NCBI GenBank assembly: GCA_949285665.1
Contig: CASDYC010000004.1
Span: forward strand, 1-38,142
DNA: 38,142 bases
Direction: 5' to 3'
Source: an uncultured bacterium
GTDB lineage: Bacteria > Bacillota_I > Bacilli_A > RFN20 > CAG-826
Positions 5,853-31,156 of this stretch are shown piece after piece; position 1 is the first letter of the stretch; every line of letters starts with the position of its first letter. The position numbers were made by a program, and so were the translations under genes. The notes beneath the pieces are model-generated. The model had not been told where the DNA came from. It worked only from the letters and a program-made list of their open reading frames with translations, and did not search any database.

Positions 5853-7523
5853 TTAAATAAGAACAGTATCTTTGTGTTCTACGTTGTCTTTAATTAATCT
5901 AATAAATTCATCAGCTGTTACAACTTCAACATGTTCGTCTAATTTATTAACTAAATCAACAACATCTTTATATTCCATACTCCAAGGATGTAAATTAATT
6001 GCCGTGTATGCTTCAATATTACTAACATCTGTTGAATAATTATTAATTCTATTTGCAATAACACTAGTGTCTGCATCCCATAAAGTTTCTCTAAAGGCTA
6101 CAAAAGGTTTATCATTTGCCCAATAAACACTACCTCTTCCTCCAGCATATTTATCACCATAACAATAAATACCACCATTTAACTCTGGTATTTTTGCATA
6201 TTGTTCAATTACGTCTTTATCTGGACCACCATCAAGAATTTGAACAACACTTAAATCAGTTCTTCTTAAGTATGCTGATAATCCATTTACAAAACTTTCT
6301 AGTGCTTCATCTGGATAAACTCTTGGATTCATATAACCTTGTCCTGATACACTACAGACATAAAAATCATTTTCATCTCTATTATCATAGACATAATTCA
6401 TTATATTTCTTCCTAAATCAGATAAACTTGGATTAATGCTCCAACCCATTTTAAAATCACCACGTTCTGCTGCTAAATATTTATTTGACATTGGAAATGT
6501 ATTATACCAAGTTTGAATATTATCGCCATCTGACATCATAATTGTTACATAATGTTTACCATCTTGTGCAACTATACTTTCATCATCTTTAATTGGATTA
6601 TTAAATCTTAATTCTCCAAAACTAGATTTTGCTGCAAATACCGACATATTTCTAGCCCAATCACTTGCAATCATAAATTGACCCATAGTTGAACATACAT
6701 TTATATCAGTTGGTTCATCAACTGGAACCCAACCAAAAATAGGCGAATCTTTTTTAGCCCATGTATGAACTTTACTTCTAAATTCTAAATCATCAACACC
6801 GTTATCAGGCCAAAAGAAGAAGAATTTTCCAGCAATTCCATAGTCTGTTAAAAATTCTTGTGTAGTTTCAGGATTTTGTTGAATAAGAGATGTATTATTG
6901 AATTCATTTTTATAAGTATCAAAGCAATCTTCTTCACTCATTCCTCTTGCATCAATTCCTAGTTCAAAACCTAAAGATTTAACTAAAGATTCTAACGAAA
7001 CATCTACTGGAATATAATCCTTAATACCAGCAATACTTCGAGCAACATTTAACTCTTTATTACTTGCATCATATAAAACATATTTATTAGTAAAATTATC
7101 TTTAAAATCTTTTAACATTTCTTCAAGACTTGTATCAGTAAAAGTAAATCCATAATTTTCTTTTAAATCATTAAGCCATGTATCATTACTTTCAAATTGA
7201 TAATAATATTTTCCATTTTCTCTAGCAAAAAATCCCTGAATTGCTGTTGCAATTACAAGCTCATTTTTATTTAAAGCTTTAGATTCGCCAACTTGAAAGT
7301 TTCTAAAAACTTTTAATTCTTTTTTATCATTTATTTTTGTTTCTAAATAATATGAAAAATCATCATCATAACCAGCATCACCACTAGTTGTTGTAGTTTG
7401 AGTATTAGTTGTTGTGGTTGTTGTATTATTATTTGATTGACTTATATCATTATTATTACAAGATACAATTAAAGTTGACATCAAACTTAATGATAACATT
7501 AATAATTTGTTTACTTTTTTCAT
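5853..7523 (-). CDS. GxGYxYP-family lipoprotein (putative glycan-active)
   Basis: A 556-residue secreted lipoprotein: signal peptide ending IVSC, lipid on Cys22, then a Thr-rich linker (about 34-46). The body matches the GxGYxYP family (N- and C-terminal domains). Seen directly are MMSDGDN (329-335), the GWSINPSLSDL block (360-370) and the name motif in variant form SGQGYMNP (393-400) followed by RVYP. A sugar-enzyme-like ending, INLHPWSMEY, follows. The family is associated with carbohydrate-active genes but no activity is established to my knowledge. The invariant Asp residues of SDGDN could be catalytic or metal ligands. It is paralogous to the genes at 7599 and 17658. A 13-bp hairpin lies just upstream of its ribosome site. 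Confidence 0.82.
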   Translation of the reverse strand: MKKVNKLLMLSLSLMSTLIVSCNNNDISQSNNNTTTTTTNTQTTTTSGDAGYDDDFSYYLETKINDKKELKVFRNFQVGESKALNKNELVIATAIQGFFARENGKYYYQFESNDTWLNDLKENYGFTFTDTSLEEMLKDFKDNFTNKYVLYDASNKELNVARSIAGIKDYIPVDVSLESLVKSLGFELGIDARGMSEEDCFDTYKNEFNNTSLIQQNPETTQEFLTDYGIAGKFFFFWPDNGVDDLEFRSKVHTWAKKDSPIFGWVPVDEPTDINVCSTMGQFMIASDWARNMSVFAAKSSFGELRFNNPIKDDESIVAQDGKHYVTIMMSDGDNIQTWYNTFPMSNKYLAAERGDFKMGWSINPSLSDLGRNIMNYVYDNRDENDFYVCSVSGQGYMNPRVYPDEALESFVNGLSAYLRRTDLSVVQILDGGPDKDVIEQYAKIPELNGGIYCYGDKYAGGRGSVYWANDKPFVAFRETLWDADTSVIANRINNYSTDVSNIEAYTAINLHPWSMEYKDVVDLVNKLDEHVEVVTADEFIRLIKDNVEHKDTVLI

Positions 7524-7551
7524 AATTCACCTTACTTTCCAATATTTATTG

Positions 7552-7583
7552 TTTTAGGGCTAGATTAATTTCTAGCCCTAAAA
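7552..7583 (-). promoter_or_regulatory. Intercistronic hairpin between the two GxGYxYP lipoprotein genes
   Basis: The perfect 13-bp arms TTTTAGGGCTAGA (7552-7564) and TCTAGCCCTAAAA (7571-7583) flank a 6-base loop. It lies after the stop of the 974-residue gene and before the ribosome site of the 556-residue gene. No proper U-run follows, so mRNA stabilisation or partial termination fits better than a full stop. Confidence 0.6.
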
Positions 7584-7598
7584 TATTTTATTTTTATT

Positions 7599-10523
7599 TT
7601 AAGCTGCTACAGTTTCAAAATAATCTAAACTACAAGCTTCACCAACACCATTATTGTTACCACCATCTCTTGCTTCAAAGAAAACAGTAACTTTTGTATT
7701 TGCCCAATCAACATTTGGATCTAAAGTTTGTAAATTAACACTATTAGTTGTATTATTTAATTCATTTCTAGCAACGTTCCAATCAAATAATACATAATAT
7801 TTTCCATTTGCATACAACGATACTTTTAACATTGCACCAGTTGGATTATCACTTGTTACTTTATAATTTAAAGTGATATTATTTGAATTTGGTAATGTGT
7901 AATATTTTGCCATCCACATATTTGTATTACCATTTCTTTTTTCATCACCACCACCATCAGAGCAGTCAATTTGAATAGTTCCGGTTTGTTCAAAACTTTC
8001 TCTATCAGTTGTACCCCACCAATAGTATTGACTTGTTTGATATTGTTCTCCAAGTAACCAATCTTCAGTTGATTCATCAAATGTATTGTTATAAATATCA
8101 ACATTACTTAAATCAATTGCAGGATCTACACTTCTTTCTGTTACAGTTACTTGATCTAGTCTTATTCCAACATCACTATTTGAAAGAACTTCAATTGAAA
8201 TAACACATTCTTTATTTTTATAATCTTCAAAATATTGAGAAATAGGGAATCCAAAACATTGCCAACCATTACCAGTTACATGTTGACTACCAGTTCCTCT
8301 AACACCATTAAGTGTTGCATTTTCAATTACAACTTTTTCTTCATCTCCAATTTTAACACTCACTTTAATGTATGCTTTTTGATTTTCATCTTGACTATCG
8401 CCTCTTGCGTTAAATGAAATCCAATAATTATCAATATTTGGTAATGTGAATGCATCTTTTACAGCTTTACTACCTTTTGCAATAGAAATATTTCCTTTAT
8501 ACATTGCACCAACATTACTACTTGCTGCATCACTTGAATTATAACTAACTCCACTTCCAGACCAATCTTCTTCCCATAATAAGAAGTCATTAAATAAAGG
8601 ATCTACTGGAATCAAAGATGGATTTTCTCTTAAATAATCTTCACTAATTGAAATACCATTTTTATCTGGAATATCAAATGTTTGTGTATTTTCTTGATGG
8701 TCAATATTATCAGTCATCATTTGCATAATTCGATCAACACTACAAACTTCAATATTGTCATTTAACATTCCAACAATTGTTCTAATATCTTCATAGCTAT
8801 GACTCCAAGGATGAACATTAATAATTGAATAGCCATCAACACTATGAATATCACTTTCATAAGTATTTAATCTTGCAGCAATATAAGCTGGAGTTGTTTC
8901 CCATAAAGAATCTCTTGGACCAACAAATGGTTTTCCATCAATCCACATGACACCACCTTGGACACTTCCAAAGTATTTATTTCCATCATAAACAATACCA
9001 CCAATTACATTATCTGCACTGGCATATCCTTTTAAAACTTGTGGTAAATTACCTTGAGAATTTCCACCAATTACAGTTACTGTTCTAAGTCCAGATTTGC
9101 CCATGTAAACGTCTAATTTTGAACAGAAATCTGCAAAATATGACCCATTATCTTGAGCAGCAAAATTTCCTGCATTTATATAACCTTGACCAGAAACTGG
9201 AGCGCAGAAATAATCATATTTATTACTAATTGTATTATAAACACTATCAATTACATTTGGCATTAAATCAACTAATGATGGAGTAATTGACCAAGTAACT
9301 GGGAATGTATCATCTTCTCGACCACTTGCGTTCATATAATTTGTTGCAAAAGGTGCAGTATTTTGCCAATAAGTTGCATTATCACCATCACTTACAACAA
9401 ATGCTACGTAATGTTTCCCTTCTTCTGCTGGTTTGTCAACGTCACTATTTGGTTGAGTAAATGTTTTTCCAGCAAATATGTCAGCAGCATGGAATGTTAA
9501 ATTACATGTATAATCAGTTGGAACTAAAAATTGTCCATATTGAGAGAAAAATGCAACATCTATATCTTCGCTAAATGCATAACCAAATATTGGACTATTA
9601 TCATCTAAAAATGAATGTAATGTCTTTTTAAATGAATTAGATACTGCGGTTGTATCATCATAATAAATATGGAAGAATTTATTACAAATTCCATAATCTT
9701 TTAAATATTTATTAGTATAACCTGTTCCATCATTATAATTTTGATGAATTAATCCTTTTGGACTTAATTCACCTAACACAATATTAAATAACCATCGATA
9801 TGATAATGCGACATTATCAAGATTAAATTTTTCTACTAAGCCTAAATCTTTATAAAATTCAACATCATCAATGCTAACTGGAATAAAACCAGTAATACCC
9901 GCTAATGTAGCTGCAGTATTTACACTAAAATTACCTGGTCTATATAAGATATATCCTGGGGTTGAATAACCTTCACCACTAGTTTCAGTGTATGCAGTTA
10001 CACCAACTGTATTATTATAACTTTCAAGAGGGATTTGACTTCCCCATGTGTTTTCTTTAACCATATCTGACCAGGAAGCAATATAATCTTGAACTGCTTT
10101 AGTTAATGTTATTGAAGTATATTCAAAATCATATTTTTCACTAGCTTCTTCAAGATAATATAAATCAGTATTTGTACCATTTGTTACATATGTTGAATCA
10201 ACATAATATGAAACTTCTTTTCTTGCAAATAAACCTTGAATTGCTTGAGCTGTATATAATCTATCATTGCTTGATAATTCTTGATCAATTAACTGTATTC
10301 CTTTTGATGTATCAAAATGTGTATTTTGATAATATGAAAATGTTTCTGGTGTAGGTGGTACATCAGGAATTGTAGTACTTGTTGTTGTAGTATTAGTTGT
10401 AGTTGTATTATCTGTTGTAGTTTGACTACTTGATGTGACATCGCTTCCATCACATGAAGTAATAGTTAAACTTAATAACAACAAACTAGCTAAACTAAGT
10501 AATTTTTGTTTGTTTTTCTTCAT
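7599..10523 (-). CDS. Large GxGYxYP-family lipoprotein with C-terminal binding domains
   Basis: A 974-residue secreted lipoprotein: lipobox ITSC with Cys24, a Thr-rich linker (about 35-51), then a GxGYxYP region. It carries VVSDGDN (376-382), TWSITPSLVDL and a divergent name motif SGQGYINA (444-451), and INVHPWSHSYEDI near residue 610. From about residue 650 there are two beta-rich domains of about 160 residues each, containing DEDWSGSG-type and CSDGGGD segments and many aromatics. They resemble carbohydrate-binding beta-sandwiches, though I cannot assign a CBM family. It begins 14 bases downstream of the permease gene stop. The likely job is processing or capture of a glycan on the cell surface before import. 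Activity is unknown. Confidence 0.82.
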   Translation of the reverse strand: MKKNKQKLLSLASLLLLSLTITSCDGSDVTSSSQTTTDNTTTTNTTTTSTTIPDVPPTPETFSYYQNTHFDTSKGIQLIDQELSSNDRLYTAQAIQGLFARKEVSYYVDSTYVTNGTNTDLYYLEEASEKYDFEYTSITLTKAVQDYIASWSDMVKENTWGSQIPLESYNNTVGVTAYTETSGEGYSTPGYILYRPGNFSVNTAATLAGITGFIPVSIDDVEFYKDLGLVEKFNLDNVALSYRWLFNIVLGELSPKGLIHQNYNDGTGYTNKYLKDYGICNKFFHIYYDDTTAVSNSFKKTLHSFLDDNSPIFGYAFSEDIDVAFFSQYGQFLVPTDYTCNLTFHAADIFAGKTFTQPNSDVDKPAEEGKHYVAFVVSDGDNATYWQNTAPFATNYMNASGREDDTFPVTWSITPSLVDLMPNVIDSVYNTISNKYDYFCAPVSGQGYINAGNFAAQDNGSYFADFCSKLDVYMGKSGLRTVTVIGGNSQGNLPQVLKGYASADNVIGGIVYDGNKYFGSVQGGVMWIDGKPFVGPRDSLWETTPAYIAARLNTYESDIHSVDGYSIINVHPWSHSYEDIRTIVGMLNDNIEVCSVDRIMQMMTDNIDHQENTQTFDIPDKNGISISEDYLRENPSLIPVDPLFNDFLLWEEDWSGSGVSYNSSDAASSNVGAMYKGNISIAKGSKAVKDAFTLPNIDNYWISFNARGDSQDENQKAYIKVSVKIGDEEKVVIENATLNGVRGTGSQHVTGNGWQCFGFPISQYFEDYKNKECVISIEVLSNSDVGIRLDQVTVTERSVDPAIDLSNVDIYNNTFDESTEDWLLGEQYQTSQYYWWGTTDRESFEQTGTIQIDCSDGGGDEKRNGNTNMWMAKYYTLPNSNNITLNYKVTSDNPTGAMLKVSLYANGKYYVLFDWNVARNELNNTTNSVNLQTLDPNVDWANTKVTVFFEARDGGNNNGVGEACSLDYFETVAA

Positions 10524-10537
10524 CTTTTTCTCCTTTT

Positions 10538-11458
10538 TTATTTCATTCCTGCAATATTATTTTGACTTAAGAAGTATTTTTGGAATACTCCATAAACTGT
10601 AATAATTGGTATAGTAATTAATATCATACCTGCGCTTCTAACAAAGCCATCTGCGTAATTCCCAAGTCCTGGATAAAACTTATACATAATAAGTTGTAAA
10701 GTTTGAACTGGACTTCCGCTTGATTGCATTATTAATGGCCATAAATATTCATTCCAAGTACTAACAACTGTTAAAATAACATATGTAATAATGACAGGTT
10801 TACTCATTGGAACAATTATTCTAAATATCTTTTTAAATTCATTGCATCCATCCATTTCAGCACTCTCTAGTACAGAATTTGGAATTGTTTGCATATATTG
10901 TTTTAATAAGAAAATACCAAATACATTGACAATACCTGGTAAAATTAATCCAAATACATTTTGGTTAATTCCCATTTTTAAAGCAATAATATAATTTGGT
11001 ATCATTAATACTTCACCAGGCACCATCATTGTTGCAAGTAGTAAACCTGAAACAATTTTTTTACCTTTAAATTCAAGTTTTGTTAAAGTATATGCAACAA
11101 TTATTGCAATAAATAATGAGATTGCTGTAAAACATACAGTATGACAAATTGTATAACCTAAAGCCATCCAAAAGCCACTTACATTCATTGCTGTCCAATA
11201 ATTACCAAGTGTAAAATTTTCAGGCCATAAATATAAAATATCAGCATTTGGTATTGTTTCTGGTGCTTGTAGAGAATCAATAAGTTTTAAATAGAATGGA
11301 AATACTTGGCAAAATGCAATAAAAGTTAAAAATACATATGCAAATATCTTAAAACCAATACTTCCAGCTCTTTTCGATTTTCTTTTATCAACTCTAAGTG
11401 CAATATTGTTAGAGGTTTCAAAATCAATTCTTCTAACAGTTTTTTCTTTATTATTCAA
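10538..11458 (-). CDS. Carbohydrate ABC permease, MalG type
   Basis: A 306-residue inner membrane subunit with about six membrane helices. The cytoplasmic EAA loop that docks to the ATPase is visible as LESAEMDGCNEFKKIFRIIV. The start is TTG at 11456-11458, supported by GGGAGG nine bases upstream and by its 8-base overlap with the end of the other permease gene, a coupling usual for these pairs. A charged N-terminal tail of about 30 residues precedes the first helix. The C-terminus QKYFLSQNNIAGMK is typical of this family. It pairs with the gene at 11451 and the binding lipoprotein at 12403. Oligosaccharide specificity is not readable from the permease. Confidence 0.93.
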   Translation of the reverse strand: MNNKEKTVRRIDFETSNNIALRVDKRKSKRAGSIGFKIFAYVFLTFIAFCQVFPFYLKLIDSLQAPETIPNADILYLWPENFTLGNYWTAMNVSGFWMALGYTICHTVCFTAISLFIAIIVAYTLTKLEFKGKKIVSGLLLATMMVPGEVLMIPNYIIALKMGINQNVFGLILPGIVNVFGIFLLKQYMQTIPNSVLESAEMDGCNEFKKIFRIIVPMSKPVIITYVILTVVSTWNEYLWPLIMQSSGSPVQTLQLIMYKFYPGLGNYADGFVRSAGMILITIPIITVYGVFQKYFLSQNNIAGMK

Positions 11459-12380
11459 TTGATTTTACCTCCCTTCCAGAAATAATTCTTTGGATAATTG
11501 TAAATATTAAAATAATTAAAAATAGTATCGTTGCATACGCACACGCTCGACCTATTTGTCCATCTTGAAATGCTGTATTATAAATGTAAAGCATTTCACT
11601 TGTTGTACCATATCCACCTTGGGTTACAAGTTGCATTGGTCCTAAAATTTTAAATCCATCAATAATTGATAAAATAACATTTAAAATAACTGCATTTTTC
11701 ATTAATGGTAATGTTATTTTAAAAAATACCTTACTTTGAGATTTACTTTCCATCATAGCTGCTTCTTTATAAGTATTTGGAATACTAATTAAAGAAGAAT
11801 AATAAATTAACATTTTGGTAGAAAATCCTAATAAAAACGGCATAACCATTAATGAAATTAATGCATATGATTCACTTGTTAACCATTGTATAGGTTCTCC
11901 TCCAAATGCCATTACTATTTGATTAGCCAGAGATGAATTTTGTGATCCAAAAACCATTTTAGTAACATCACTTCCAACAACACCACTAACTAATGATGGC
12001 CAAAATAATAATCCTAAGAATAATTTTTGTCCTCTTTTGATTGAATATATTAAAAAAGCACATAATAAAGCCATCAAATTATTTCCAACAGTCATTACAA
12101 GAGTCCAAACAATTGTAACACCCATTGCCGACCAATAATCTTGATCAAATCTTGGATTAGCTATATCAAACATTCTTATATAATTATTAAGTGTAAATTC
12201 AATCTCGCCGCCATTAGCAAGTTTTGCTAATGTTACGTTTGTAAAAGACATTACTAAAGCCGCAACAAATGCAATTACAAACCATATTGTCCACCAAGAC
12301 ATTGGAAAAGCCAAAAGCCCTGTAGCTTTTAGGGCTTGTCTATGTTTTCCAATTCTTCGTTTTTTAACTGAGATTTCCAT
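11451..12380 (-). CDS. Carbohydrate ABC permease, MalF type
   Basis: A 309-residue membrane subunit with six predicted helices and the EAA loop YKEAAMMESKSQSKVFFKITLP. It opens with a basic segment and a long first periplasm-type loop as in LacF/UgpA-like subunits. It lies 22 bases after the binding-protein gene and overlaps the following permease gene by 8 bases. The order binding protein, MalF type, MalG type is the standard CUT1 arrangement, which carries oligosaccharides or glycosides. Together with the ATPase at 3389 the importer is complete. Confidence 0.93.
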   Translation of the reverse strand: MEISVKKRRIGKHRQALKATGLLAFPMSWWTIWFVIAFVAALVMSFTNVTLAKLANGGEIEFTLNNYIRMFDIANPRFDQDYWSAMGVTIVWTLVMTVGNNLMALLCAFLIYSIKRGQKLFLGLLFWPSLVSGVVGSDVTKMVFGSQNSSLANQIVMAFGGEPIQWLTSESYALISLMVMPFLLGFSTKMLIYYSSLISIPNTYKEAAMMESKSQSKVFFKITLPLMKNAVILNVILSIIDGFKILGPMQLVTQGGYGTTSEMLYIYNTAFQDGQIGRACAYATILFLIILIFTIIQRIISGREVKSIE

Positions 12381-12402
12381 AAAATAATAATTTAATTAGA
12401 TA

Positions 12403-13725
12403 TTATTCAAAATCGTATAAAACTTCTTCTAATGCAGCTTGAATACTATATAAATAATTAGGTTCTCTTTCTCCATTAACTAAACCAGTTACAAATTGAG
12501 CTAATTCTTTTTCAATTGTTGGCCATGCAGCACTACCTGGTCTTGGAACAGAGCGATTAAGTTGTTCTTTATAAATTTCCCAATCAGCTGTATCATAAAA
12601 TTCATCTTCTAATGCTTCTTTTGTTGTTGGCATTAAATATTGAGTTGAATTATGTCCAACTTGAGTTTCATAATCTGTTGTAACAAATTTAATAAAGTCT
12701 GCAGCTAATGCTTGATTTTGTGATTTTCTTGTTAAAACAAGAGAATATAATCCGAGCCCACTACTAATATCTCCGCCTTCTTCATTTGGCATAATTGGAG
12801 CATATTTTATATTTATATCTGTATCATTATTCATTCTTGAATAATCAAGCATTTTCCATGAACCCATTTCAATAAAGGCAACTTTTCCAGTTTCAAATTT
12901 AGATTCACTAAATACTGTTGGTGTATATCCACCTTTTCCAAGTTGTTGAATTTTTGTTGCAGCGTTCATATTTTCTTGGCTTGATAATGTCATTTGAGTG
13001 AAATCATCATTCATAATTGTTCCACCTTCTCTTGCCGACATTCCAAGATAATACATTGCACCAAAGCTTTCAGCACCAGTACCAGCTGGGACTGTTGTTA
13101 AAAATAATTCTTCATTTCCGGTTAGATTATTTGCTTGATTATAAGCTTTAATTTTATCACCTAATTCTATATAAGATTCCCAATCAGTTGGTAAATCTTC
13201 TTCAGTTGTATCTTTATTTAAAACTTTATCTAATAAAGCTTTATTATAAACTCTTGTAATTGAATTTGCAGACATTGGAAGAGCATATAAATCTTCTTGA
13301 TATAAATTTGGTTCCCATAAAGAATCGATAAATAAATCTTTTGTATTTTGTAAACCAAAATTATTTAAATTTGCAATGCTTCCATCATATGCAAGTCTTT
13401 GAACATAAACATGGTCAATATATGCGACATCAGGAAATTCATTTCCTAATAATGCCATATTGTATGCAAAATAAAAGTCAGCTGTTGATTGAAATCTTAT
13501 ATCAATTGTTACTTGAGGATGTAATTCTTCATATCTATCAACTGCATCATTAATAACACTTTCAACAGCAGTACTACCTCCTGGCCACCATACAATAAGG
13601 TTCCCACTTAAGTTTGTATCATCATAACTTCCATCAAATGATGTAGTATTATTATTACAAGATGTTAAACAAAAACTACTAATCAATAAGGATGAAAGTA
13701 TAACTTTTTTTAATATTTTCTTCAT
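12403..13725 (-). CDS. Sugar-binding lipoprotein of ABC transporter
   Basis: A 440-residue extracellular solute-binding protein, family 1. The signal peptide ends CLTSC with lipid attachment at Cys23. The N-lobe has the family pattern NLIVWWPGGSTAVESVINDAVDRYEE and the middle has MSANSITRVYNKALLDK, the usual hinge-side block. Unlike its lipoprotein neighbours it lacks a Thr-rich linker, as expected when the protein must dock to the permeases. A GGGGGT ribosome site lies just upstream, preceded by a perfect hairpin. It should capture the oligosaccharide released by the surface proteins; mannose content is inferred from manA and GH38 nearby. Confidence 0.92.
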   Translation of the reverse strand: MKKILKKVILSSLLISSFCLTSCNNNTTSFDGSYDDTNLSGNLIVWWPGGSTAVESVINDAVDRYEELHPQVTIDIRFQSTADFYFAYNMALLGNEFPDVAYIDHVYVQRLAYDGSIANLNNFGLQNTKDLFIDSLWEPNLYQEDLYALPMSANSITRVYNKALLDKVLNKDTTEEDLPTDWESYIELGDKIKAYNQANNLTGNEELFLTTVPAGTGAESFGAMYYLGMSAREGGTIMNDDFTQMTLSSQENMNAATKIQQLGKGGYTPTVFSESKFETGKVAFIEMGSWKMLDYSRMNNDTDINIKYAPIMPNEEGGDISSGLGLYSLVLTRKSQNQALAADFIKFVTTDYETQVGHNSTQYLMPTTKEALEDEFYDTADWEIYKEQLNRSVPRPGSAAWPTIEKELAQFVTGLVNGEREPNYLYSIQAALEEVLYDFE

Positions 13726-16497: not shown

Positions 16498-16513
16498 AGA
16501 AAATCGTTTTTCT
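16498..16513 (-). promoter_or_regulatory. LacI-type operator O1 (16 bp)
   Basis: The minus strand reads AGAAAAACGATTTTCT, a near-perfect palindrome with a central CG typical of LacI family operators. It starts at the predicted transcription start of the island operon, a classic blocking position. The identical 16 bases recur at 19218-19233 beside the lacI gene's own promoter region. Confidence 0.8.
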
Positions 16514-16653: not shown

Positions 16654-17655
16654 TTATTCTTTAATTTTTCTAATAGAATCTGTTAATTTCCATTTAGATT
16701 TAATTAATACACAATGTGTACAATCCTTTTTTTCTAATTTATCAATTAACATTTCAGTAGCTTTTCGGCCGATAATTTTATAATCTTGAATTGCATAAGA
16801 TAATTTTGGTCCATTTAAATCATCGTTTTTTGACTTGCCAAGAGCAAATACTCCTACTTCGTTTCCGACTTTCAATCCTTTGTCGTGAATCGCTTTATAT
16901 AAACCAACTGCAACCCTTGAATTACAAGTTATAAAACAAGCATCTTTTTCAGCATATTTTAAGCCATAATTATATCCTTCTTCAATTACTCCTTGTAAAT
17001 TTTCAAAATAATAATCTTTTGGATCAACTTTATTTTTAATTAATGCATCAAAAAATCCATCTTTTCTATCTTCTGTAATTGTTAAAGACGATGAGGCATT
17101 TAATAAATATATTTTTTGGTAGCTCTTTGATAATAATTCTGTAATTTCTCTTGTTAAATTATAATTATCAACATCAATATAATCATAATGAATACCTCTT
17201 CCAGGTCTTCCAATAACTACACATTCAATTGATGAATTTTGAATTTCTTTTAATCGATCATCATCAATGTTTGGAGTTAATAATATTGCTCCATCAATTG
17301 GTGCTTTTCCATATTTTAGGTATTTAATTAATGTTTCATTATCAACATTTGTAAATAATAATACTGAATATTTCTTTTTTGCAGCCATTGAAAGAGAAGA
17401 TATAACTAAATCTCCATATAAAGAATGTTCTTCCATATCAGGACGATATTCTAATAAAATTGCAATAATATGTGTTTTTCTTTCACCCAATGATAAACTA
17501 GATGCATAAAAATTTGGAGTATAATCTAATTCATGACAAATTTTTAATACTTTTTCTTTTAATTCTGGACTAACGTATTTTCTACCTGTTAATACATTAG
17601 ATACTGTTGATTTAGCAACTCCAGCTTTTTTTGCAACATCATTTATACTAACCAT
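16654..17655 (-). CDS. LacI-family repressor of the glycan island
   Basis: A 333-residue regulator. The N-terminal helix-turn-helix (SINDVAKKAGVAKSTVSNVL, residues 3-22) and hinge helix region near 50-57 are standard, followed by a periplasmic-binding-protein-like sensor domain ending with the family motif for ligand and dimer contacts. Length is normal. It starts two bases after the stop of the cytoplasmic GxGYxYP gene and is translated with it, so it is probably controlled by its own operator at 19218-19233. The two identical 16-bp operators at 16498 and 19218 are the best candidates for its targets. The effector is probably a mannoside or mannose-phosphate derivative released by the pathway; that is inference. 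Confidence 0.92.
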   Translation of the reverse strand: MVSINDVAKKAGVAKSTVSNVLTGRKYVSPELKEKVLKICHELDYTPNFYASSLSLGERKTHIIAILLEYRPDMEEHSLYGDLVISSLSMAAKKKYSVLLFTNVDNETLIKYLKYGKAPIDGAILLTPNIDDDRLKEIQNSSIECVVIGRPGRGIHYDYIDVDNYNLTREITELLSKSYQKIYLLNASSSLTITEDRKDGFFDALIKNKVDPKDYYFENLQGVIEEGYNYGLKYAEKDACFITCNSRVAVGLYKAIHDKGLKVGNEVGVFALGKSKNDDLNGPKLSYAIQDYKIIGRKATEMLIDKLEKKDCTHCVLIKSKWKLTDSIRKIKE

Positions 17656-17657
17656 AA

Positions 17658-19139
17658 TTATTCCTTTCTTTTTACATTTTGATTAATAAGTTTTATTAAT
17701 TCATCAGCATATACTAATTCAATATCACTATTTAATTTAGACAAAACATATTCTAAATCATCAATTGAGATACTCCAAGGATGAAAATTTAAAACTGTAT
17801 AACCTTCTTCAGAATTGATATTTGGTTTTAATGAATTTAATTTTTCAACATATTCATCTAAAAAACTTTTTGGTGTAAACCCAACTTTTGCAAATGGACA
17901 CCAAAGTGAATATCTAACAGAGACAAATGGTTTATTATTTACATAAAAGATTTTACCATTTCCACTACTATATCTATCAGGGTCTATTTCCCAAATACCG
18001 CCAATTATTTTATCATTTTTTGCATAATATTTCAGTCTATTTTTAACATTGTCATCATTTTTAATATCTTGTATATTATCTAATAAACAAACAACATCAA
18101 GATCCATTTTTTTCATAGCATCAGTTGTAAATTTACAATATTTTTTTAAATACCTTTCTGGAAAAGACATTAAATTTGCATACCCTATACCTGATACACT
18201 AGAAATAAAATAATTACTTTTTTCACTACCATAAACTACATCTAAAACATTAGGACATAATTTATAAATAGAAGGCGATATAGTCCAAGTAATTTTATAA
18301 TCTAGTTTACTTCTTTCTCTACAACCAAAAGTTGAAGATGTTGTAAAGTCTCTTGAAAGCCACTGAATATTATCTCCATCTGACACAACTATAGATAAAT
18401 AATGTTTATTATTTTTAATTAACGATTTTTTTGTTTGTTGCTTATATATTTTTTTTCTTTTTATTTCAAAATAACTTTGATTTGAACACCAATCACTTGG
18501 TAAAGCATAATGGCCGTATTGAGAAATACATTTAATAAATGATATTTCATTATCGTTCCATCCATAAATTGGTGAAACAGGTTTTAAAAACGATAATACT
18601 TCTTTTCTAAATTCTAAATCTTCCTCATTTTCACTTGTATATATACATGCAAATCGATTTTTAATTGCAAAATCTCTTAAAACAATTAAAAAATTATTTT
18701 TTGAAACTACTTGATGAACAAGACCGGTTCTATTTAATTTATTTTTAACTTCATCGAAAATTATTTTTTGTCTATATGCTCTGCTTCCTTTTATATCATT
18801 CATATTTCTAACTACTTTTAAATTAGAAATTGATATAACTTTTTCTAATAATTTGTCTGGAACTCCTAAATAATCATATTTAGCACATATCATCGAAGCC
18901 ATATTTATTCCAATATCTTCACAATCTAATTTATAGGTAACAATTCCATCAAAATATTTTGAAGTTAATTTTATTAAATCATATAAATCAACATAATTAT
19001 AATTATCGTCTAAGTAATTAATATAATTTTCAACATCTATATAAACTTTTTCTTTTTTTCTATTTAAAACACCTTGAAGAAAAATACTAAGGGCTTTCTC
19101 ATCAAAACTTAATTTGTCCCATTTAATTACATGTGTCAT
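17658..19139 (-). CDS. Cytoplasmic GxGYxYP-family protein
   Basis: A 493-residue paralogue of the two secreted GxGYxYP lipoproteins, but with no signal peptide or membrane segment, so it should act in the cytoplasm. It has SIVVSDGDNIQWL (249-261), TWTISPSIYKLCP (285-296), a variant name motif SGIGYANL (316-323), and VLNFHPWSIS near the end. It keeps the N-terminal helical region (ALSIFLQGVLNRK) seen in the others after their linkers. It is transcribed divergently from the GH38-family gene and with lacI. A division of labour is implied: surface members handle the polymer, this one the imported fragment. Reaction unknown. Confidence 0.82.
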   Translation of the reverse strand: MTHVIKWDKLSFDEKALSIFLQGVLNRKKEKVYIDVENYINYLDDNYNYVDLYDLIKLTSKYFDGIVTYKLDCEDIGINMASMICAKYDYLGVPDKLLEKVISISNLKVVRNMNDIKGSRAYRQKIIFDEVKNKLNRTGLVHQVVSKNNFLIVLRDFAIKNRFACIYTSENEEDLEFRKEVLSFLKPVSPIYGWNDNEISFIKCISQYGHYALPSDWCSNQSYFEIKRKKIYKQQTKKSLIKNNKHYLSIVVSDGDNIQWLSRDFTTSSTFGCRERSKLDYKITWTISPSIYKLCPNVLDVVYGSEKSNYFISSVSGIGYANLMSFPERYLKKYCKFTTDAMKKMDLDVVCLLDNIQDIKNDDNVKNRLKYYAKNDKIIGGIWEIDPDRYSSGNGKIFYVNNKPFVSVRYSLWCPFAKVGFTPKSFLDEYVEKLNSLKPNINSEEGYTVLNFHPWSISIDDLEYVLSKLNSDIELVYADELIKLINQNVKRKE

Positions 19140-19217: not shown

Positions 19218-19233
19218 AGAAAAACGATTTTCT
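19218..19233. promoter_or_regulatory. LacI-type operator O2 (16 bp) in the divergent promoter
   Basis: AGAAAAACGATTTTCT on the plus strand, identical in all 16 bases to the reverse complement at 16498-16513. It lies between the divergent GxGYxYP/lacI and GH38/HAD units and its last base touches the -35 box of the GH38 promoter. Confidence 0.8.
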
Positions 19234-19282: not shown

Positions 19283-22117
19283 ATGAAAAAAATACATGTT
19301 ATTAGTGGCACTCACTGGGACAGAGAGTGGAGACATACCGCTGAACAAAGTAAATTAAGACTTTGTGATTTAATGGACAATATTATTAATATTTTAGAAA
19401 ATAAAGAAAATTATAAATATTTTTGTGTTGATGGCGGATCTATTGTTATTGAAGATTATTTAACAGTTAGACCAGAAAATAAAGAAAGAATTAAAAAATT
19501 AATTGAAGCAAAAAAAATCTTTATTGTTAATTGGTACACACTACCAGAAACAAATACTGTTGCACCAGAAGCTTTAATTAGAAATTTATTACTCGGTAAA
19601 AAAATGGGTAAAGAATACGGTGGTACTATAAAATCTGGTTATACTGCTACTTCTTATGGTCAACCTTCTCAACTTCCTCAATTATATAATGGTTTTAATA
19701 TTACAGATGCAATTTTTTATCGTGGAACAAATAAACATGTTTTAACTCCATTGTTTACATGGGTTGGAGCAGATGGTTCTACTCTTGATACTTTAAGAAC
19801 ATTTGACGAAGTCACAAGAACTAACTGGTTCTTTTATATTCATGGTCCAGCTGTACTTGGTAAAGGGCAAAAAGATTTAAGTTACAAATATGATAAATCA
19901 CAACTACCAGTACATATGGCTGATATGGGATCTTATGAAAAAGCATTTACTTTGTTACATGAAGATTTTGATTATATTCACGATAAGAAAGTCCAAAAAG
20001 ATGCATTAGATGCATTAATTAATCAAGCAGAACCTTATGCAATTAATAATGAAATATTAGCATTAAATATGGAAGATAACGATGAACCATATAGATTTTT
20101 GCCAGAATTAATTGATGATTTAAATAAAATTTATCCTGATAAATACGAAATTGTTCAAGATACTTTAGACGATTATATGAAAACAATTCGTAGCATTAAA
20201 GATTACAAGAAAGCTGTTCACCATGGTGAACTTAGATATACAACAATGGAATATAATAACTTTAATGCACTTCTTGGAGCAACTCATTCTTCAAGAATTA
20301 AAATTAAATTATTAAATGACGATTGTGAAAATAACTTAATTAATTTAGCAGAGCCACTTGCTTCTTTTGCAAAAACTTATGGAAAAGAATACCCAACAAA
20401 TAATCTGAATAGAGCATGGAAATATTTATTAAAATGTCATGCTCATGACTCAATTTGTGGTGCTGCCGTTGATAGAGCACACGAAGATATGCTTTATAAT
20501 TTTTCTCTTACAAAAACAGTTGCTGAAGAATGTACTAATAGAGCAGTTATAGGATTGTTTTCTAATATAAATACTAAAGAAAACTTCCAAGAAAATGATT
20601 ATGTTATGACTTTCTTTAATACGATGCCATTTGAAAGAGATGAAATTGTTGAAGCAGTATTTGATACTCCAAAAGGATCTGCTGCAAAAGTTGATATTGG
20701 TGTAGATGGAGCAAATCAAGGTGACCAATTCTACGATATAGTCGATGAAAACGGCAATAAAACTGAATATATAGAACTTTATAATGACGATATTTCAATT
20801 GGCGTTGAAAGAGAAATGGATACTAAAGCAATTAAATTTAATGCTAATAGAAAAAGAGTTTTAGTTCATGTTAAAGTACCTCAATTTGGATACAAATCAT
20901 ACGCATTAAGATTTAGAAAACCTGAATTTGAATTTCATCCAGAAATTATGGAAAACAGAAAACTCATCGCTAGAGAAAACGGGGTATTAGAAAACGAATT
21001 CTTAAAAGTTAGTATAAATTCAAATGGTACTATTAATTTATTAGATAAAGAAAACAATCGTTTAATGGAAAATATGATGTATTATACTGATGCTGGAGAA
21101 ACTGGTAGCGCTCATATTTCAACTCAACCAAAAAGAAATACAACTTATACAAGTTTAGGTTGTACTTCTCAAATAACAATGCTTGAAAGCAATGAATTAA
21201 GAGGTAAATATAAAATAGATATTCAATTAACAATTCCAGCTGCTGCAACAGTAAACGGCGACGACCGAACAAGAGAGATGAAAACTTTACCTATTTCTAC
21301 TATTTTAACTTTAGAAAAAGGTTGTAAATACTTAAAAGTTGAAACAACTCTAAATAATGAATGTAGAGATCATAAATTAGTCGTTAATTTCCCATCTAAT
21401 TTAGAAAAAGCAGACTGGGTTGATGTAGAATCTGCTTGGGATATTGCTCATAGAACAATAAAATGGAGAGATCATAAAGATAATTTTGAAGCATTTACTC
21501 CATTCCAACCAATGCAAAATTTTGTCGATGTTAGTGATAATAAATACGGTCTTGCAATTCTAACAAAGGGTTTAAGAGAATATGAAATTGCAGATGATAA
21601 TTTGAGAACAATTAAAATTACTCTTATTAGAACTCAAAGAGCTTACATGACTGCAAATAGTAAAATGAATGTTGAGGAATTAGATAAATATACAGGTCAA
21701 CATAGTTTTGGAAAAATTACTTATCAATATGCAATTTATCCACATAAAGGAAATTATAAAGACGGATTAGTATTATCAAAAGCATATGAAAATAAAGTTC
21801 CAGTCAAAGCAATTCAAGGTGTTGTTATGGATGGAATTTTAAAAAGTACTGATTCTTTTATTTCTATTAATCAGGAAAATAAAGTTTTCTTAAGTGGTAT
21901 TAAAGAAAGTGAAAATAAAGATGGCATTATTGTTAGATTATGGAACGAAACTGATCAAACTCTTCCTTTAAAAGTTAAAACAATATTACCAGTTAAAGAA
22001 ATTTTAAGAGTTAAATTAAACGAGGATTTCATTGAAGAAATGAATTTCAAAAATAATGAATTCGAACTCGAAATGAAACCTCATAAAATTGAAACTTTCT
22101 TATTTAAATTAAAATAA
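19283..22117 (+). CDS. GH38-family (alpha-mannosidase-like) protein lacking the catalytic Asp
   Basis: A 944-residue cytoplasmic protein, full length for bacterial GH38 enzymes that cleave alpha-mannosides. It has the zinc pair HWD (His11, Asp13), a block NLLLGKKMGKEYGG leading to GYTATSYGQPSQLPQ (119-133), and CHAHDSICGAAVD carrying the last zinc His. In ordinary members the block reads GYxPDSFGQ and that Asp is both nucleophile and zinc ligand; here the position is Thr123 (codon ACT at 19649-19651). The region that usually reads NG-x-DHQ-E-P is NMEDNDEP (262-269), so the acid/base-type Asp265 remains but His is Asn. It may be inactive, or act by a different mechanism on another substrate. 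A 21-base gap leads to a HAD gene. Confidence 0.85.
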   Translation: MKKIHVISGTHWDREWRHTAEQSKLRLCDLMDNIINILENKENYKYFCVDGGSIVIEDYLTVRPENKERIKKLIEAKKIFIVNWYTLPETNTVAPEALIRNLLLGKKMGKEYGGTIKSGYTATSYGQPSQLPQLYNGFNITDAIFYRGTNKHVLTPLFTWVGADGSTLDTLRTFDEVTRTNWFFYIHGPAVLGKGQKDLSYKYDKSQLPVHMADMGSYEKAFTLLHEDFDYIHDKKVQKDALDALINQAEPYAINNEILALNMEDNDEPYRFLPELIDDLNKIYPDKYEIVQDTLDDYMKTIRSIKDYKKAVHHGELRYTTMEYNNFNALLGATHSSRIKIKLLNDDCENNLINLAEPLASFAKTYGKEYPTNNLNRAWKYLLKCHAHDSICGAAVDRAHEDMLYNFSLTKTVAEECTNRAVIGLFSNINTKENFQENDYVMTFFNTMPFERDEIVEAVFDTPKGSAAKVDIGVDGANQGDQFYDIVDENGNKTEYIELYNDDISIGVEREMDTKAIKFNANRKRVLVHVKVPQFGYKSYALRFRKPEFEFHPEIMENRKLIARENGVLENEFLKVSINSNGTINLLDKENNRLMENMMYYTDAGETGSAHISTQPKRNTTYTSLGCTSQITMLESNELRGKYKIDIQLTIPAAATVNGDDRTREMKTLPISTILTLEKGCKYLKVETTLNNECRDHKLVVNFPSNLEKADWVDVESAWDIAHRTIKWRDHKDNFEAFTPFQPMQNFVDVSDNKYGLAILTKGLREYEIADDNLRTIKITLIRTQRAYMTANSKMNVEELDKYTGQHSFGKITYQYAIYPHKGNYKDGLVLSKAYENKVPVKAIQGVVMDGILKSTDSFISINQENKVFLSGIKESENKDGIIVRLWNETDQTLPLKVKTILPVKEILRVKLNEDFIEEMNFKNNEFELEMKPHKIETFLFKLK

Positions 22118-22138: not shown

Positions 22139-23140
22139 ATGAAATACTATATTAAAAATTTAGGCACTTTTGATAGTGAAAAAAATGGATTAATTAATAT
22201 TAAAAAATGTTCTGATGGCTATTTTCAAGAAGGAAAAGATGGTGTAATTGGAGTTTATGCAACTGGTGATAGAAAAGTTGAATTTATCGCCTTTAAGGAT
22301 CGAACTATTGCTTATGTTTTATCAAGCATTGGATATCCTGCATATTATCCAGTTAAAGAAATTAAATTAGAAGCTCCAATTAAAGCTGTTTTAATGGATT
22401 TAGATGGAACTAGTGTTAAAAGTGAAGAATTTTGGATTTATATTATTCAAAAAACAGTCCAATCTTTATTAAATGATGATACATTTAAATTTTCTAAAGA
22501 AGATTTACCATTTGTATCAGGTCATTCAGTTAGTGAACATTTACAATATTGCATTGAAAAATATGCTCCAAATTCTACATTAGAACAAGCAAGAGAATAT
22601 TATTTTAAGCATACTCATTATGAAATGAATGAAATTATGAAAGGAAGAGGAAAAAAAGGAGCCTTTACTCCTTCTTCTCATCTAAAAGAATTTTTATTAG
22701 GATTAAAAAAACTAGATGTAAAAATAGGTTTAGTTACAAGTGGTTTATATGAAAAAGCATGGCCAGAAATATTATCTGCTTTTAATACACTAGAAATGGG
22801 TGATCCAAAAGAATTTTATGATGCTTCTATTTCTGCTGGTTTTCCTATTAGAAAAGGCAGTGTTGGAACGCTTGGTGAATTAGAACCAAAACCACATCCT
22901 TGGTTATATGCTGAAACTTGTACAGTTGGATTAAATATCCCAGAATCAGAAAGAAATCATGTTATAGGAATTGAAGATTCAGGGGCAGGTGTTTGTTCTA
23001 TCGTTCTTGCTGGTTATACTTGTATTGGATATGATGGTGGAAATATAATTTCAAGCGGAACAAAAGAATTATGTTCTTATTATTTTAATGATTTATTAGA
23101 TATTTTAGAGTTTATAAAATCTATAAATGCCGAAAATTAA
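22139..23140 (+). CDS. HAD-superfamily hydrolase, beta-phosphoglucomutase-like, with N-terminal extension
   Basis: A 333-residue protein of which residues about 80-333 form a HAD phosphatase/phosphomutase domain with helical cap: motif I DLDGT (87-91), motif II with VTSG, motif III Lys in EPKPHP, and motif IV GIEDSGAG. The first 80 residues (MKYYIKNLGTFDSEKNGLIN onward) are an extra beta-rich domain that I do not recognise. It is co-transcribed with the GH38-family gene, with an AAGGA ribosome site. It probably dephosphorylates or isomerises a sugar phosphate made from the imported glycan. Substrate unknown; context favours mannose derivatives. No terminator is evident after it. Confidence 0.8.
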   Translation: MKYYIKNLGTFDSEKNGLINIKKCSDGYFQEGKDGVIGVYATGDRKVEFIAFKDRTIAYVLSSIGYPAYYPVKEIKLEAPIKAVLMDLDGTSVKSEEFWIYIIQKTVQSLLNDDTFKFSKEDLPFVSGHSVSEHLQYCIEKYAPNSTLEQAREYYFKHTHYEMNEIMKGRGKKGAFTPSSHLKEFLLGLKKLDVKIGLVTSGLYEKAWPEILSAFNTLEMGDPKEFYDASISAGFPIRKGSVGTLGELEPKPHPWLYAETCTVGLNIPESERNHVIGIEDSGAGVCSIVLAGYTCIGYDGGNIISSGTKELCSYYFNDLLDILEFIKSINAEN

Positions 23141-25072: not shown

Positions 25073-27055
25073 CTAAACAGCTTTATTTTTATTTCTCTTT
25101 ACTTTATCAATGAAAGTTTTTAACATCATGTCTTCCATAGAAGACATACATACATTATACGTGAATTTATCGATTAAACTAGCATAATGCTTAGAACAAA
25201 TTTCTCTTTCTTCTTTATGTTCAAGCCAATAATCTATTTTTTTAGCTAAATCTTTGGCATTATTATGCTTAAATATGTTTCGATCATCTAAAGCAAAATA
25301 TCTACTTGATGATTTCTTTGAATCGCTAACTAATAGCGTACAGCCACAACAAATTGCTTCAATTATTGATACTGATTCAATATCAATGCCACTTGGATGA
25401 ACATATAAATCACATAAATTATAGTATCTTACAAGTTCATTTAAATTATAAAAACCAAATATAGGTTGATTTGTTAATTTTTTACTCATCTTTTTAACTT
25501 TATCAATTAATGGACCTCTACCAGGTAAGAATAATTGAATTTTATCCTTATATTTTGAATATTTAATAGCTTTTATTAAGGTTTTGTGGCATTTTTCTTT
25601 TGAAAATCTAGCATTATAAACTATTAAATATTTATCTTTAAATTCATCAGGATTTTCAATTTGACTTCTATCTAACTTTTTATAACCTTCTTTTACACAA
25701 TTTGAAATTACAATACCATTACCTAATTTTGAAATTTTTTCAAAAGTTGTTTTCATAAATTCACTAGGATAGGCAATTGTATCAACATATCGATAAAGTT
25801 TTAAATAAAAATCTTTGTAAATCAATCTATTTACAAAATCAACATTTTGCATAAAGAAGTGATTTGTAACATTTTCAGCTTGGCAGTGAAATCCGGCAGT
25901 AATTGGAATTCCCATATGATGAGCATATTTTGCTGCCATTTTACCAAGCATAAATGGCATCATAACATGAACTAGATCAACACCTTTTAATGAAGCTAAA
26001 ATTACTTCAGTATCTTTTTTTGCCAATTGAACACCATTTCTTTTAATATAATCATTAAATATATAGAAATTTCTTGTTTGAGTAACATAAAATCCTTCTT
26101 TTCCTCGTTGATTTTGATCACAACAAAGAACTCTAACAGTATGTCCTCTTTCTTTTAAATATTTAATCAAATTAATACTTGCAACAATTGTTCCATTATT
26201 TTCTTCACCATAAACATCACAAACAACAAGTATTGTAAGTTTTAAATCATTTTTATCTCGATAAATATATTTAACATAAACTTCTTGATTAATAGAATTT
26301 GATAAATTAACTAGTGAATTATAACAACTTTCACCTAAATAATTTATGTTTTCTCTTTCACTAAGCTCTTTTTTTGGATAAATTGGATCACCAATTAAAA
26401 CACTTAATCTAGGTTTTCTAAATAATTTCCAAAAACCTTTTTTAACTCTACGAGCATAAAATACTGGAACTACAGGAGCATTAATTCTTGCTGGATATCT
26501 AAAAGATGAATATTTGAAATGTCTAATTTTTGTATAATATGGCCAAAGTGTTGCCTCTGGAAAAATTGCAACAATTTGTTTTTGATTTTTAACTAAATCT
26601 TCAATTGTAGATTGAAAATTAAGTAAATATCTTGGTGAATTTGGAAGTGGTAAATAACCTAATAATCTTAAAAATGGTCTAGCTGCAATTATTGAAAATG
26701 CTCCACTATGACCAACGGTATTTACTCTTTTTTTACCACCAACATAAAGATTACAAATTACATCAAAAACACCTTCATGATTTGAGTAAATAAAATAACC
26801 TTGATTTGATTTTTTTAATTCTTTTAATTTTGATTTATTTTCAATTTTAACACCAATAAAAAATGCAATAATTTTTGTTAATGGGATTGCAAAACCATAA
26901 GTAAAAATATACGAAATAAAAGCATAAAATTTGCTTCTTTTATATTTAAACTTATCTCCTAACTCTTCTTTTGGCAATTCTTCTCCAAAATCATCTATTA
27001 ATTGATTTGGATCTTCATAATATCTAATTTTACTAAATTTGCTATCAATTCTCAT
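25073..27055 (-). CDS. Fused PlsC-type acyltransferase and GT4 glycosyltransferase
   Basis: A 660-residue protein with two enzyme domains. Residues about 45-260 are a lysophosphatidic-acid-type acyltransferase: the catalytic HX4D is NHEGVFD (His93, Asp98) and the substrate block is FPEATLWP (165-172). Residues about 272-655 are a GT4, GT-B fold glycosyltransferase, with DVYGEENNGT at the acceptor loop and a D-x7-E motif (DIESVSIIE) where the family usually has E-x7-E. This looks like glycolipid or phosphatidate-linked lipid synthesis at the membrane: one domain acylates, the other adds a sugar. Such fusions are uncommon. There are two or three hydrophobic stretches near the N-terminus. Promoter at 27112-27139. 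Confidence 0.85.
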   Translation of the reverse strand: MRIDSKFSKIRYYEDPNQLIDDFGEELPKEELGDKFKYKRSKFYAFISYIFTYGFAIPLTKIIAFFIGVKIENKSKLKELKKSNQGYFIYSNHEGVFDVICNLYVGGKKRVNTVGHSGAFSIIAARPFLRLLGYLPLPNSPRYLLNFQSTIEDLVKNQKQIVAIFPEATLWPYYTKIRHFKYSSFRYPARINAPVVPVFYARRVKKGFWKLFRKPRLSVLIGDPIYPKKELSERENINYLGESCYNSLVNLSNSINQEVYVKYIYRDKNDLKLTILVVCDVYGEENNGTIVASINLIKYLKERGHTVRVLCCDQNQRGKEGFYVTQTRNFYIFNDYIKRNGVQLAKKDTEVILASLKGVDLVHVMMPFMLGKMAAKYAHHMGIPITAGFHCQAENVTNHFFMQNVDFVNRLIYKDFYLKLYRYVDTIAYPSEFMKTTFEKISKLGNGIVISNCVKEGYKKLDRSQIENPDEFKDKYLIVYNARFSKEKCHKTLIKAIKYSKYKDKIQLFLPGRGPLIDKVKKMSKKLTNQPIFGFYNLNELVRYYNLCDLYVHPSGIDIESVSIIEAICCGCTLLVSDSKKSSSRYFALDDRNIFKHNNAKDLAKKIDYWLEHKEEREICSKHYASLIDKFTYNVCMSSMEDMMLKTFIDKVKRNKNKAV

Positions 27056-29077: not shown

Positions 29078-31156
29078 ATGATTAAACAAATTTTTTTAAG
29101 TAGCTTAATTCTATTATCACCATATGTTTCTAAGACATATGATAATAATAATGTCAATCAATCTTTTTCAATTTCAGATCAAAATCAAATAGCACAATAT
29201 TACAAAAATATTGATACATCAAGTAATGAAAATACTTTAATTTCATTACACAATTTATTAAAAACAAATCAAACAAAAGTTAATTATGAATCTGGTGATA
29301 CAACTTCTACTTCTTGGAGTGGTTTTTCATTAGCTGATAGAAATTTAGAGCTTTCACCATTCACTCAAGAAGAATTAAATAGCAAAAAATTTAAAACTAG
29401 CGATATTTGGGTAAATATCATGTATGTTGATCGCCCAATATATGTTAGTAACAAATTAAATTCAGGTGAATATAAATATTATTCTAATATAACAAAAGGG
29501 GATTTAATTTCAGGTCAATTTAATTCTAATTCTTTAGGAAGAGAACATGTCTTTCCAAAATTTTATGGATTTAATGGACAAGACGGAGATGAATATAAGA
29601 AATATTTTGCTGGTGTAGATATGCACAATTTGCACACCTCTGATGGAAGAAATAATTCAATTGGTCATAGAAATTATCCCTATGGATTTGTTGATGAAAC
29701 TCAAAATGGTAAAATTTTAGAAGTTAGCAATAACTTAACTAACACTATTACTGGATATCGACAAGAAAGCGATAAGTATGAATATATTTATGAGCCAGAA
29801 GATGATATTAAAGGCGATATTGCAAGAAGTATATTTTATATGGTTGCAAGATATTATGTCTATGAAGAAAAAGATGCAATTAATCAGCCATCACCAGCTT
29901 TAAGGCTTGGAAATGATATATCAATGCAAGCAGTTGAACCAAATGATACAAAAAATAATCCAGCTGTTTATGGAATCTTAGATGATTTATTATTATGGAA
30001 TGAATTAGATCCAGTCAGTGAACAAGAAAAACAAAGAAACGAAATTGTTTATCAATTTATTCAAAATAATAGAAATCCATTTATTGATTATCCAAATTGG
30101 GTGAATATTTTATTTTCAAATTCTCAAGATAAAATAAATTTAAATATTGAAAATGGTATTGATGAATATGGATTTAAAATAAAACTTCCAAGTGATTTTA
30201 ATACTTCTTATAAAATTAATGATACTGTTAATTTATCAAAAATTACTTTTGAATACATTAATAATGATAAATCAAGTCAAGTTATTGATCCAAATTTAGT
30301 TAATACTTATATTTTAGATGATAATGGTAATTTTAATAAATTAGATGAAACTGAATTTGACATAACTAAAAACACATTAATTAGATATGAATACAAAATT
30401 AATAATCAAACATATTTTGATGATTTAACACTTACTACTTCTGATAATCCTCTTGGAAATATTTCATTAAGCATTTCAAGCGATAATTTAAAAACAACAT
30501 ATAGATTAAATGATTCTATATCTTTAGATGTTATCAGTGTTAAATTAAATAATAATGGTATCTTAAATGAACTAAAAAAAGATGAATTTGATTTATTTAT
30601 TAAAGGCCCAAAAGATAAAGAATTTAGGTTAATTGACACTAATCCATATACACTTAATTTACCTGGGAAATATCAATTATATGCAACTTATATGTTTGAT
30701 GATACTTTAATTACATCAAATAAATTAGAAATTAATGTAATTGATCAAGAAAACACATACATAAAAATAAATTCAAATAATTTATTCAAATTAAATTACG
30801 GAATATTTGAACCACTTGAATTAAATAAATTAGATATTGAATTTTACTTTAATAATTCATTAATTAATTTAGATGATTCGATATCTGTTTCATACATATT
30901 AACAGGACCAAATAATATTAATGAATTATTAAATGTAAAAGATGAATATATGTTATCAAGTCTTGGAGAATATAATTTACATGTTGAAATAACTTATTTT
31001 GATACAACTATTTCATCAAATACAATCACTTTAAATGTTGCTATCTCTACTTTCCAATATATTTTAATAATTGTTGGTGTTTTAATTATTTTAATTATAG
31101 TTATTGTTACATTTGTCTTAAAAAATAAAAAGAAATCAAAGAAAAGAAAAAAATAA
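29078..31156 (+). CDS. Membrane-anchored endonuclease I family protein
   Basis: A 692-residue secreted protein: signal peptide (1-20), endonuclease I (His-Me finger) domain at about 100-345, two or three Ig-like domains (about 350-650), a membrane helix (about 655-683) and a Lys/Arg-rich cytoplasmic tail. The catalytic block GREHVFPKFYG (His157) and DMHNLHTSDGRNNSIGHRNYPYG with the metal-binding Asn match the family that degrades DNA and RNA outside the cell. It probably scavenges nucleotides for an organism with limited synthesis. It is longer than standalone endonuclease I (about 230 residues) because of the stalk and anchor. Convergent with the MFS gene; shared terminator follows. Confidence 0.87.
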   Translation: MIKQIFLSSLILLSPYVSKTYDNNNVNQSFSISDQNQIAQYYKNIDTSSNENTLISLHNLLKTNQTKVNYESGDTTSTSWSGFSLADRNLELSPFTQEELNSKKFKTSDIWVNIMYVDRPIYVSNKLNSGEYKYYSNITKGDLISGQFNSNSLGREHVFPKFYGFNGQDGDEYKKYFAGVDMHNLHTSDGRNNSIGHRNYPYGFVDETQNGKILEVSNNLTNTITGYRQESDKYEYIYEPEDDIKGDIARSIFYMVARYYVYEEKDAINQPSPALRLGNDISMQAVEPNDTKNNPAVYGILDDLLLWNELDPVSEQEKQRNEIVYQFIQNNRNPFIDYPNWVNILFSNSQDKINLNIENGIDEYGFKIKLPSDFNTSYKINDTVNLSKITFEYINNDKSSQVIDPNLVNTYILDDNGNFNKLDETEFDITKNTLIRYEYKINNQTYFDDLTLTTSDNPLGNISLSISSDNLKTTYRLNDSISLDVISVKLNNNGILNELKKDEFDLFIKGPKDKEFRLIDTNPYTLNLPGKYQLYATYMFDDTLITSNKLEINVIDQENTYIKINSNNLFKLNYGIFEPLELNKLDIEFYFNNSLINLDDSISVSYILTGPNNINELLNVKDEYMLSSLGEYNLHVEITYFDTTISSNTITLNVAISTFQYILIIVGVLIILIIVIVTFVLKNKKKSKKRKK

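Follow-up and report, generated by a model that had tools for sequence, protein, structure and literature searches.

A conserved GH38 branch without the catalytic Asp, accompanied by a HAD-superfamily partner

Bacterial GH38 enzymes with solved structures include SpGH38 (2wyh) and the E. faecalis protein (3lvt/5kbp), and mannosylglycerate hydrolase MngB is represented by the NCBIfam model NF007331. In SpGH38, D125 acts as the nucleophile and is also one of four zinc ligands, together with H13, D15 and H351; D232 is the acid/base residue, Y192 hydrogen-bonds the nucleophile, and W18 stacks on the ligand (PMC2815779). In GH130, three basic residues hold a phosphate nucleophile, and members with carboxylates at these places are hydrolases (PMC4599007). 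Genes for GxGYxYP proteins have earlier been recorded near mannosidases (PMC4071793).

The window, a stretch of 38,142 nucleotides from an uncultured bacterium (contig CASDYC010000004.1), encodes a GH38 protein that shares with SpGH38, the E. faecalis enzyme and MngB the fold, the domain order, the H/D/H zinc ligands, the acid/base Asp and D389. It differs from bacterial GH38 enzymes in the Thr that stands for the Asp, in Arg residues at 17, 172 and 179, in an insertion around residues 174–222, in the His at the Y574 place of SpGH38, and in its HAD partner.

A GH38 protein with Thr at the nucleophile position

The gene (19283–22117, forward strand) was found to be an intact, full-length ORF for 944 residues, as the initial annotation had stated. 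A profile search matched all four GH38 Pfam domains to its product. The AlphaFold model (pLDDT 89.9, pTM 0.92) keeps the GH38 fold and matched 5kbp and 2wyi in a fold search with a TM of 0.84; domains and structural match together place the protein in GH38. The nearest NCBIfam model was that of MngB, against which the protein scored 408 at a cut-off of 1138.

Alignment by HMMER to 3lvt/5kbp and 2wyh set T123 (codon 19649–19651), within the motif GYTATSYGQ (residues 119–127, 19637–19663), under the Asp of GYFPDTFGN without gaps. The Asp that is nucleophile and fourth zinc ligand in GH38 retaining alpha-mannosidases is thus replaced by Thr, which agrees with the initial annotation. Misalignment of the motif was ruled out, as it was gap-free in the HMMER alignment and in two MAFFT alignments. 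With the offset between the two numberings counted by hand, T123 corresponds to D125 of SpGH38, H11, D13 and H388 to H13, D15 and H351, and D265 to D232. The two motifs said to be kept were indeed present, HWD at residues 11–13 (19313–19321), supplying H11 and D13, and HDSICG from residue 388, where the zinc ligand H388 is followed by D389 (20444–20449). The His after the acid/base Asp had been reported as lost. It was observed that D265 (20075–20077) aligns with the Asp of NGxDH and is followed by Asn, so the acid/base Asp itself is kept and the change is confined to the next residue.

A second GH38 in the same genome (L148:1-2487) is canonical, with the Asp nucleophile present (KPDTFGH), and has its own LacI gene upstream, away from the island; the Thr protein is thus not the sole GH38 of this organism.

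A branch that lost one acidic residue and gained arginines

One scan of a genome collection yielded 27 relatives, mostly from animal-gut Clostridia; a further Thr-type protein came from a sample of 391 Clostridia genomes, giving 28 in total. Thr123 was invariant in all 28 (59–84% identity), in the motif GYTAT[SA]YGQ, and dN/dS of the window protein against its nearest relative was about 0.17. The view that the protein is selected and not decayed was thus upheld; decay or sequencing error was ruled out by the intact ORF, the 28 Thr-type relatives and the dN/dS value.

The Asp was also absent from the 20 Clostridial proteins next in similarity (near 30% identity), found in the same 391-genome sample, which carry Phe, Ser or Ala instead, in motifs such as GYNVFSFGQ, GYSIFSFGQ, GYESFGWGQ, GYSPFGWGQ and AYTPSSWGQ, whereas all 38 controls have Asp at position 123. 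Because Phe, Ser and Ala occupy this place in sister clades, Thr is unlikely to be a true nucleophile. In the tree, the Asp-type GH38 proteins near the branch formed a separate supported group. When the tree was rooted, the nucleophile-less proteins needed two changes, and a single clade was not rejected (AU p = 0.46).

The zinc site (H11, D13, H388) was kept in every aligned row with a residue there, HWD being retained in Thr-, Phe-, Ser- and Ala-type proteins alike. The general acid D265 was Asp in 48 of 48 nucleophile-less proteins, among which neither the acid/base Asp, nor the zinc ligands, nor D389 showed an exception. The place of SpGH38 Y574 is His or Trp across the branch.

Every alignment column was scanned, with no positions chosen in advance. 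In the main alignment, 123 was the sole column to have lost its acidic residue throughout the nucleophile-less proteins. No branch-wide gain of an acidic column that could replace the Asp was found in the scan of two alignments, so that sequence gives no support to another Asp having taken the nucleophile position. Basic residues were gained at three places. R17 (19331–19333) is Arg or Lys throughout the branch, where 34 of the 38 Asp-type proteins have Tyr, and it directly follows W16, which aligns with W18 of SpGH38. R172 (19796–19798), where a core strand ends, is Arg in 44, Lys in one and His in three of the 48 proteins. R179 (19817–19819), present in 48 of 48, lies in the insertion; F183, four residues further on, is the counterpart of Y192 of SpGH38. 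By homology, all three would be near the active site. Weaker basic gains were seen at columns 194, 211 and 786. In the second alignment, which has fewer Asp-type rows, the gains at 17, 179, 194, 211 and 786 recurred; column 172 was equally conserved within the branch and fell under the cut-off owing to six Asp-type rows with Lys or His. This alignment added a lost acid at 353 and basic gains at 318 and 935.

The initial annotation had suggested that the protein could belong to a GH38 branch that differs in mechanism or substrate, or that has a role in binding. The branch proved to be large and conserved, while its mechanism is a matter of prediction, taken up below. Beyond what had been annotated, the branch includes the Phe-, Ser- and Ala-type proteins, has gained three arginines and has a HAD enzyme as its near-constant partner.

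The HAD partner and the island genes

The partner gene (22139–23140, forward strand) starts 21 nt downstream of the GH38 gene and encodes a HAD-superfamily enzyme of 333 residues, of the beta-phosphoglucomutase/sugar-phosphatase type according to profile and fold searches. Like beta-phosphoglucomutase and HAD phosphatases (4gib, 3nas, the MtlD phosphatase domain), it has intact core motifs (DLDGT, TSG, KPHP and EDS) and a helical cap. It is unlike beta-phosphoglucomutase in forming a family of its own (55–79% identity internally), in an extra N-terminal region and in a cap motif, SGHSVxEHL, without Arg; the cap Arg (R49) of beta-phosphoglucomutase, which grips the second phosphate, appears to be absent from that place, as judged by eye from the alignment, and His129, His134 or Arg152 could substitute for it. 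The HAD profile matched only beta-phosphoglucomutases in the PDB, and the curated cut-off for these enzymes was not reached (23.5 bits vs 189.4). The fold search with the model gave mannitol-1-phosphate phosphatase, beta-phosphoglucomutase, hexitol phosphatase and others. No signal sequence was seen on either the GH38 protein or the HAD partner.

With a family HMM, the HAD was found at 21 of 28 Thr-type and 13 of 20 Phe/Ser/Ala-type loci, and at none of 20 Asp-type loci. Taken together, 34 of 48 nucleophile-less loci against 0 of 20 gave a Fisher p of 3e-8. Among the 391 Clostridia genomes, 18 had a nucleophile-less GH38, 18 had the HAD and 16 had both (p = 2e-24); both tests ignore shared ancestry, and one GH38 split over contigs (G797) was classed by its HD motif alone. 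The HAD gene was mostly directly adjacent to GH38, and at a few loci some 2–3 kb off. Four of the seven Thr-type loci without it had fewer than 300 bases of contig left after GH38. In the two HAD-only Clostridia genomes, gene fragments were found; as to the GH38-only genomes, the contig of G640 ends 43 bases past the gene, and G535, with a Phe-type protein, is a genuine exception. HAD genes away from GH38 adjoin or are near mannose-6-phosphate isomerase genes (L139, L142, L147 and L110). Among 392 genomes of the window's phylum, the HAD occurred in the window's genome and in G043 only. The G043 gene (L138:8298-9161; 46% identity) stands alone with housekeeping-like genes alongside, and no nucleophile-less GH38 was found in that genome.

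On the reverse strand, the island comprises a ROK-family sugar kinase (2342–3340), a MalK-type ABC ATPase (3389–4804), a mannose-6-phosphate isomerase, ManA, scoring over its curated cut-off (4836–5804), two lipoprotein-like GxGYxYP proteins (5853–7523 and 7599–10523; together 5853–10523), an ABC sugar importer of two permeases and a binding lipoprotein (10538–13725), and a LacI-family regulator (16654–17655). A third GxGYxYP protein of 493 residues (17658–19139), divergent to the GH38 gene, had no visible signal sequence and a second N-terminal domain below threshold. A check proposed with the initial annotation, whether Thr-sharing homologues also neighbour GxGYxYP genes, turned out positive: such genes were present at 13 of 28 Thr-type loci, in addition to the three copies in the window. 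None was found near Phe/Ser/Ala-type loci, so GxGYxYP is probably tied to the substrate of the Thr type alone. Other related loci contain a GH92 mannosidase or a hexokinase. In L098 and L100, a GH94 phosphorylase and a GH88-family gene are followed by a Phe-type GH38–HAD pair in one apparent operon. Elsewhere in the window, 25073–27055 encodes a fusion of an acyltransferase domain with a GT4-type glycosyltransferase (660 residues), and 29078–31156 a protein of 692 residues whose first half carries an Endonuclease I domain, while no domain was recognised in the remainder.

The GH38 gene had been placed under the island regulator. A LacI-type palindrome, GAAAAWCGWTTTTC, was read by eye from the GH38 promoter and then searched genome-wide. 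It had exactly two sites in the 1.03-Mb genome, both in the island: the candidate operator GAAAAACGATTTTC upstream of the GH38–HAD pair (19219–19232), 50 nt from the GH38 gene, and a second copy upstream of the lipoprotein/importer operon (16499–16512). The restriction of the palindrome to these two promoters suggests that the pair and the importer probably both answer to the LacI protein of the island, in line with the earlier placement. LacI-family genes also occur at 11 of 28 Thr-type loci, and loosely similar CG-centred palindromes lie upstream of GH38 in L010, L011, L012 and L014.

Proposed phosphorolysis and alternative readings

A general acid kept with neither an enzymatic nucleophile nor a base, as found in these sequences, is the pattern of an inverting phosphorylase. 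Together with the kept zinc site, the three arginines and the HAD partner, it would be best fitted by an inverting glycoside phosphorylase, most likely cytoplasmic and acting on alpha-mannosides, whose sugar 1-phosphate the HAD would process; we give this reading about an even chance. The lack of signal sequences would suit a phosphorylase that needs cytoplasmic phosphate. Zinc, bound by H11, D13 and H388, would still hold O2 and O3 of the sugar, D265 would still protonate the leaving group, and inorganic phosphate gripped by R17, R172 and R179 would attack C1 from the beta face. Attack from the side of the former Asp would yield beta-mannose 1-phosphate. A HAD resembling beta-phosphoglucomutase would naturally accept this compound and might convert it as a mutase to mannose 6-phosphate (or, as a phosphatase, free the sugar). 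Mannose-6-phosphate isomerase would then lead through fructose 6-phosphate into glycolysis. We infer phosphate as the nucleophile, beta-mannose 1-phosphate as the product, the mutase role, and mannose as the glycone, the last because the zinc and O2/O3 contacts are kept and mannose genes are present; with His or Trp in place of Y574, another manno-configured sugar is possible.

The change in GH130 may serve as a mirror-image precedent by analogy. If the phosphorylase reading is right, the GH38 branch would resemble GH130 mannoside phosphorylases in a single displacement by phosphate, three basic residues, a cytoplasmic location and a mannose pathway. GH130 is however another family, which converts beta-mannosides to alpha-Man-1-P, whereas the GH38 branch would be expected to convert alpha-mannosides to beta-Man-1-P. 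No GH38 phosphorylase or alpha-mannoside phosphorylase was found in the non-subscription literature that was searched. That these proteins are, as far as is known, the first such branch for alpha-mannosides, with the Asp traded for an Arg phosphate site and a dedicated HAD beta-phosphomannomutase, is put forward tentatively, its probability falling a little short of even. Phe123 of some relatives might crowd the phosphate, which is the main structural worry. The Phe-type GH38 of G535 without a HAD and the HAD of G043 without a nucleophile-less GH38 also speak against the reading. The apparent absence of the cap Arg, and a model that is also phosphatase-like, would count against the mutase role, the fold matches agreeing with a mutase and a phosphatase alike.

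The chief rival, which we consider unlikely, holds that the anion bound by the arginines, a phosphate or another, belongs to the substrate, for example a phosphomannosyl glycan, with the HAD as a phosphatase before or after cleavage and inversion by zinc-bound water. The same Arg gains and HAD association would agree with it, as would the hexitol phosphatase among the HAD fold matches and the MngB model as the nearest one, the natural substrate of E. coli MngB being 6-phosphorylated. On its own, this rival leaves the missing nucleophile unexplained, and the island importer is of the ABC type and not a substrate-phosphorylating PTS. A hydrolase with another mechanism, by inverting attack of zinc-bound water or by attack of the substrate O2 on zinc (a 1,2-anhydro route, for whose neighbouring-group chemistry GH99 is the precedent), also has a low probability: both the O2/O3-binding zinc and the general acid are still in place, but there is no new branch-wide acidic column to act as the base, and the arginines and the HAD would go unexplained. 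A descendant of GH38 that binds sugar or regulates without being a catalyst appears improbable; the classical nucleophile is lost and the genome has a second, Asp-keeping GH38, yet the cytoplasmic location argues against a binder, as do the acid/base Asp, zinc ligands and D389 kept in all 48 proteins, which a binder would not need. Least probable is an ordinary retaining alpha-mannosidase with a nucleophile from another carboxylate. The Thr clade does have specific invariant acids near the motifs (E89, E264, D267 and E268), but the branch has gained no common acidic column, the motif is gap-free and the GH38 fold is preserved in the model.

If the members of the branch are phosphorylases, they would let many gut Clostridia, along with some Bacilli, gain mannose from glycans with a saving of ATP, and a family of retaining hydrolases would have given rise to an inverting phosphorylase through the loss of one residue and the gain of a few. 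An enzyme would then be at hand for making alpha-mannosides from a sugar phosphate. Current sequence models name such proteins alpha-mannosidases or mannosylglycerate hydrolases, and the uncharacterised GxGYxYP proteins gain a testable context.
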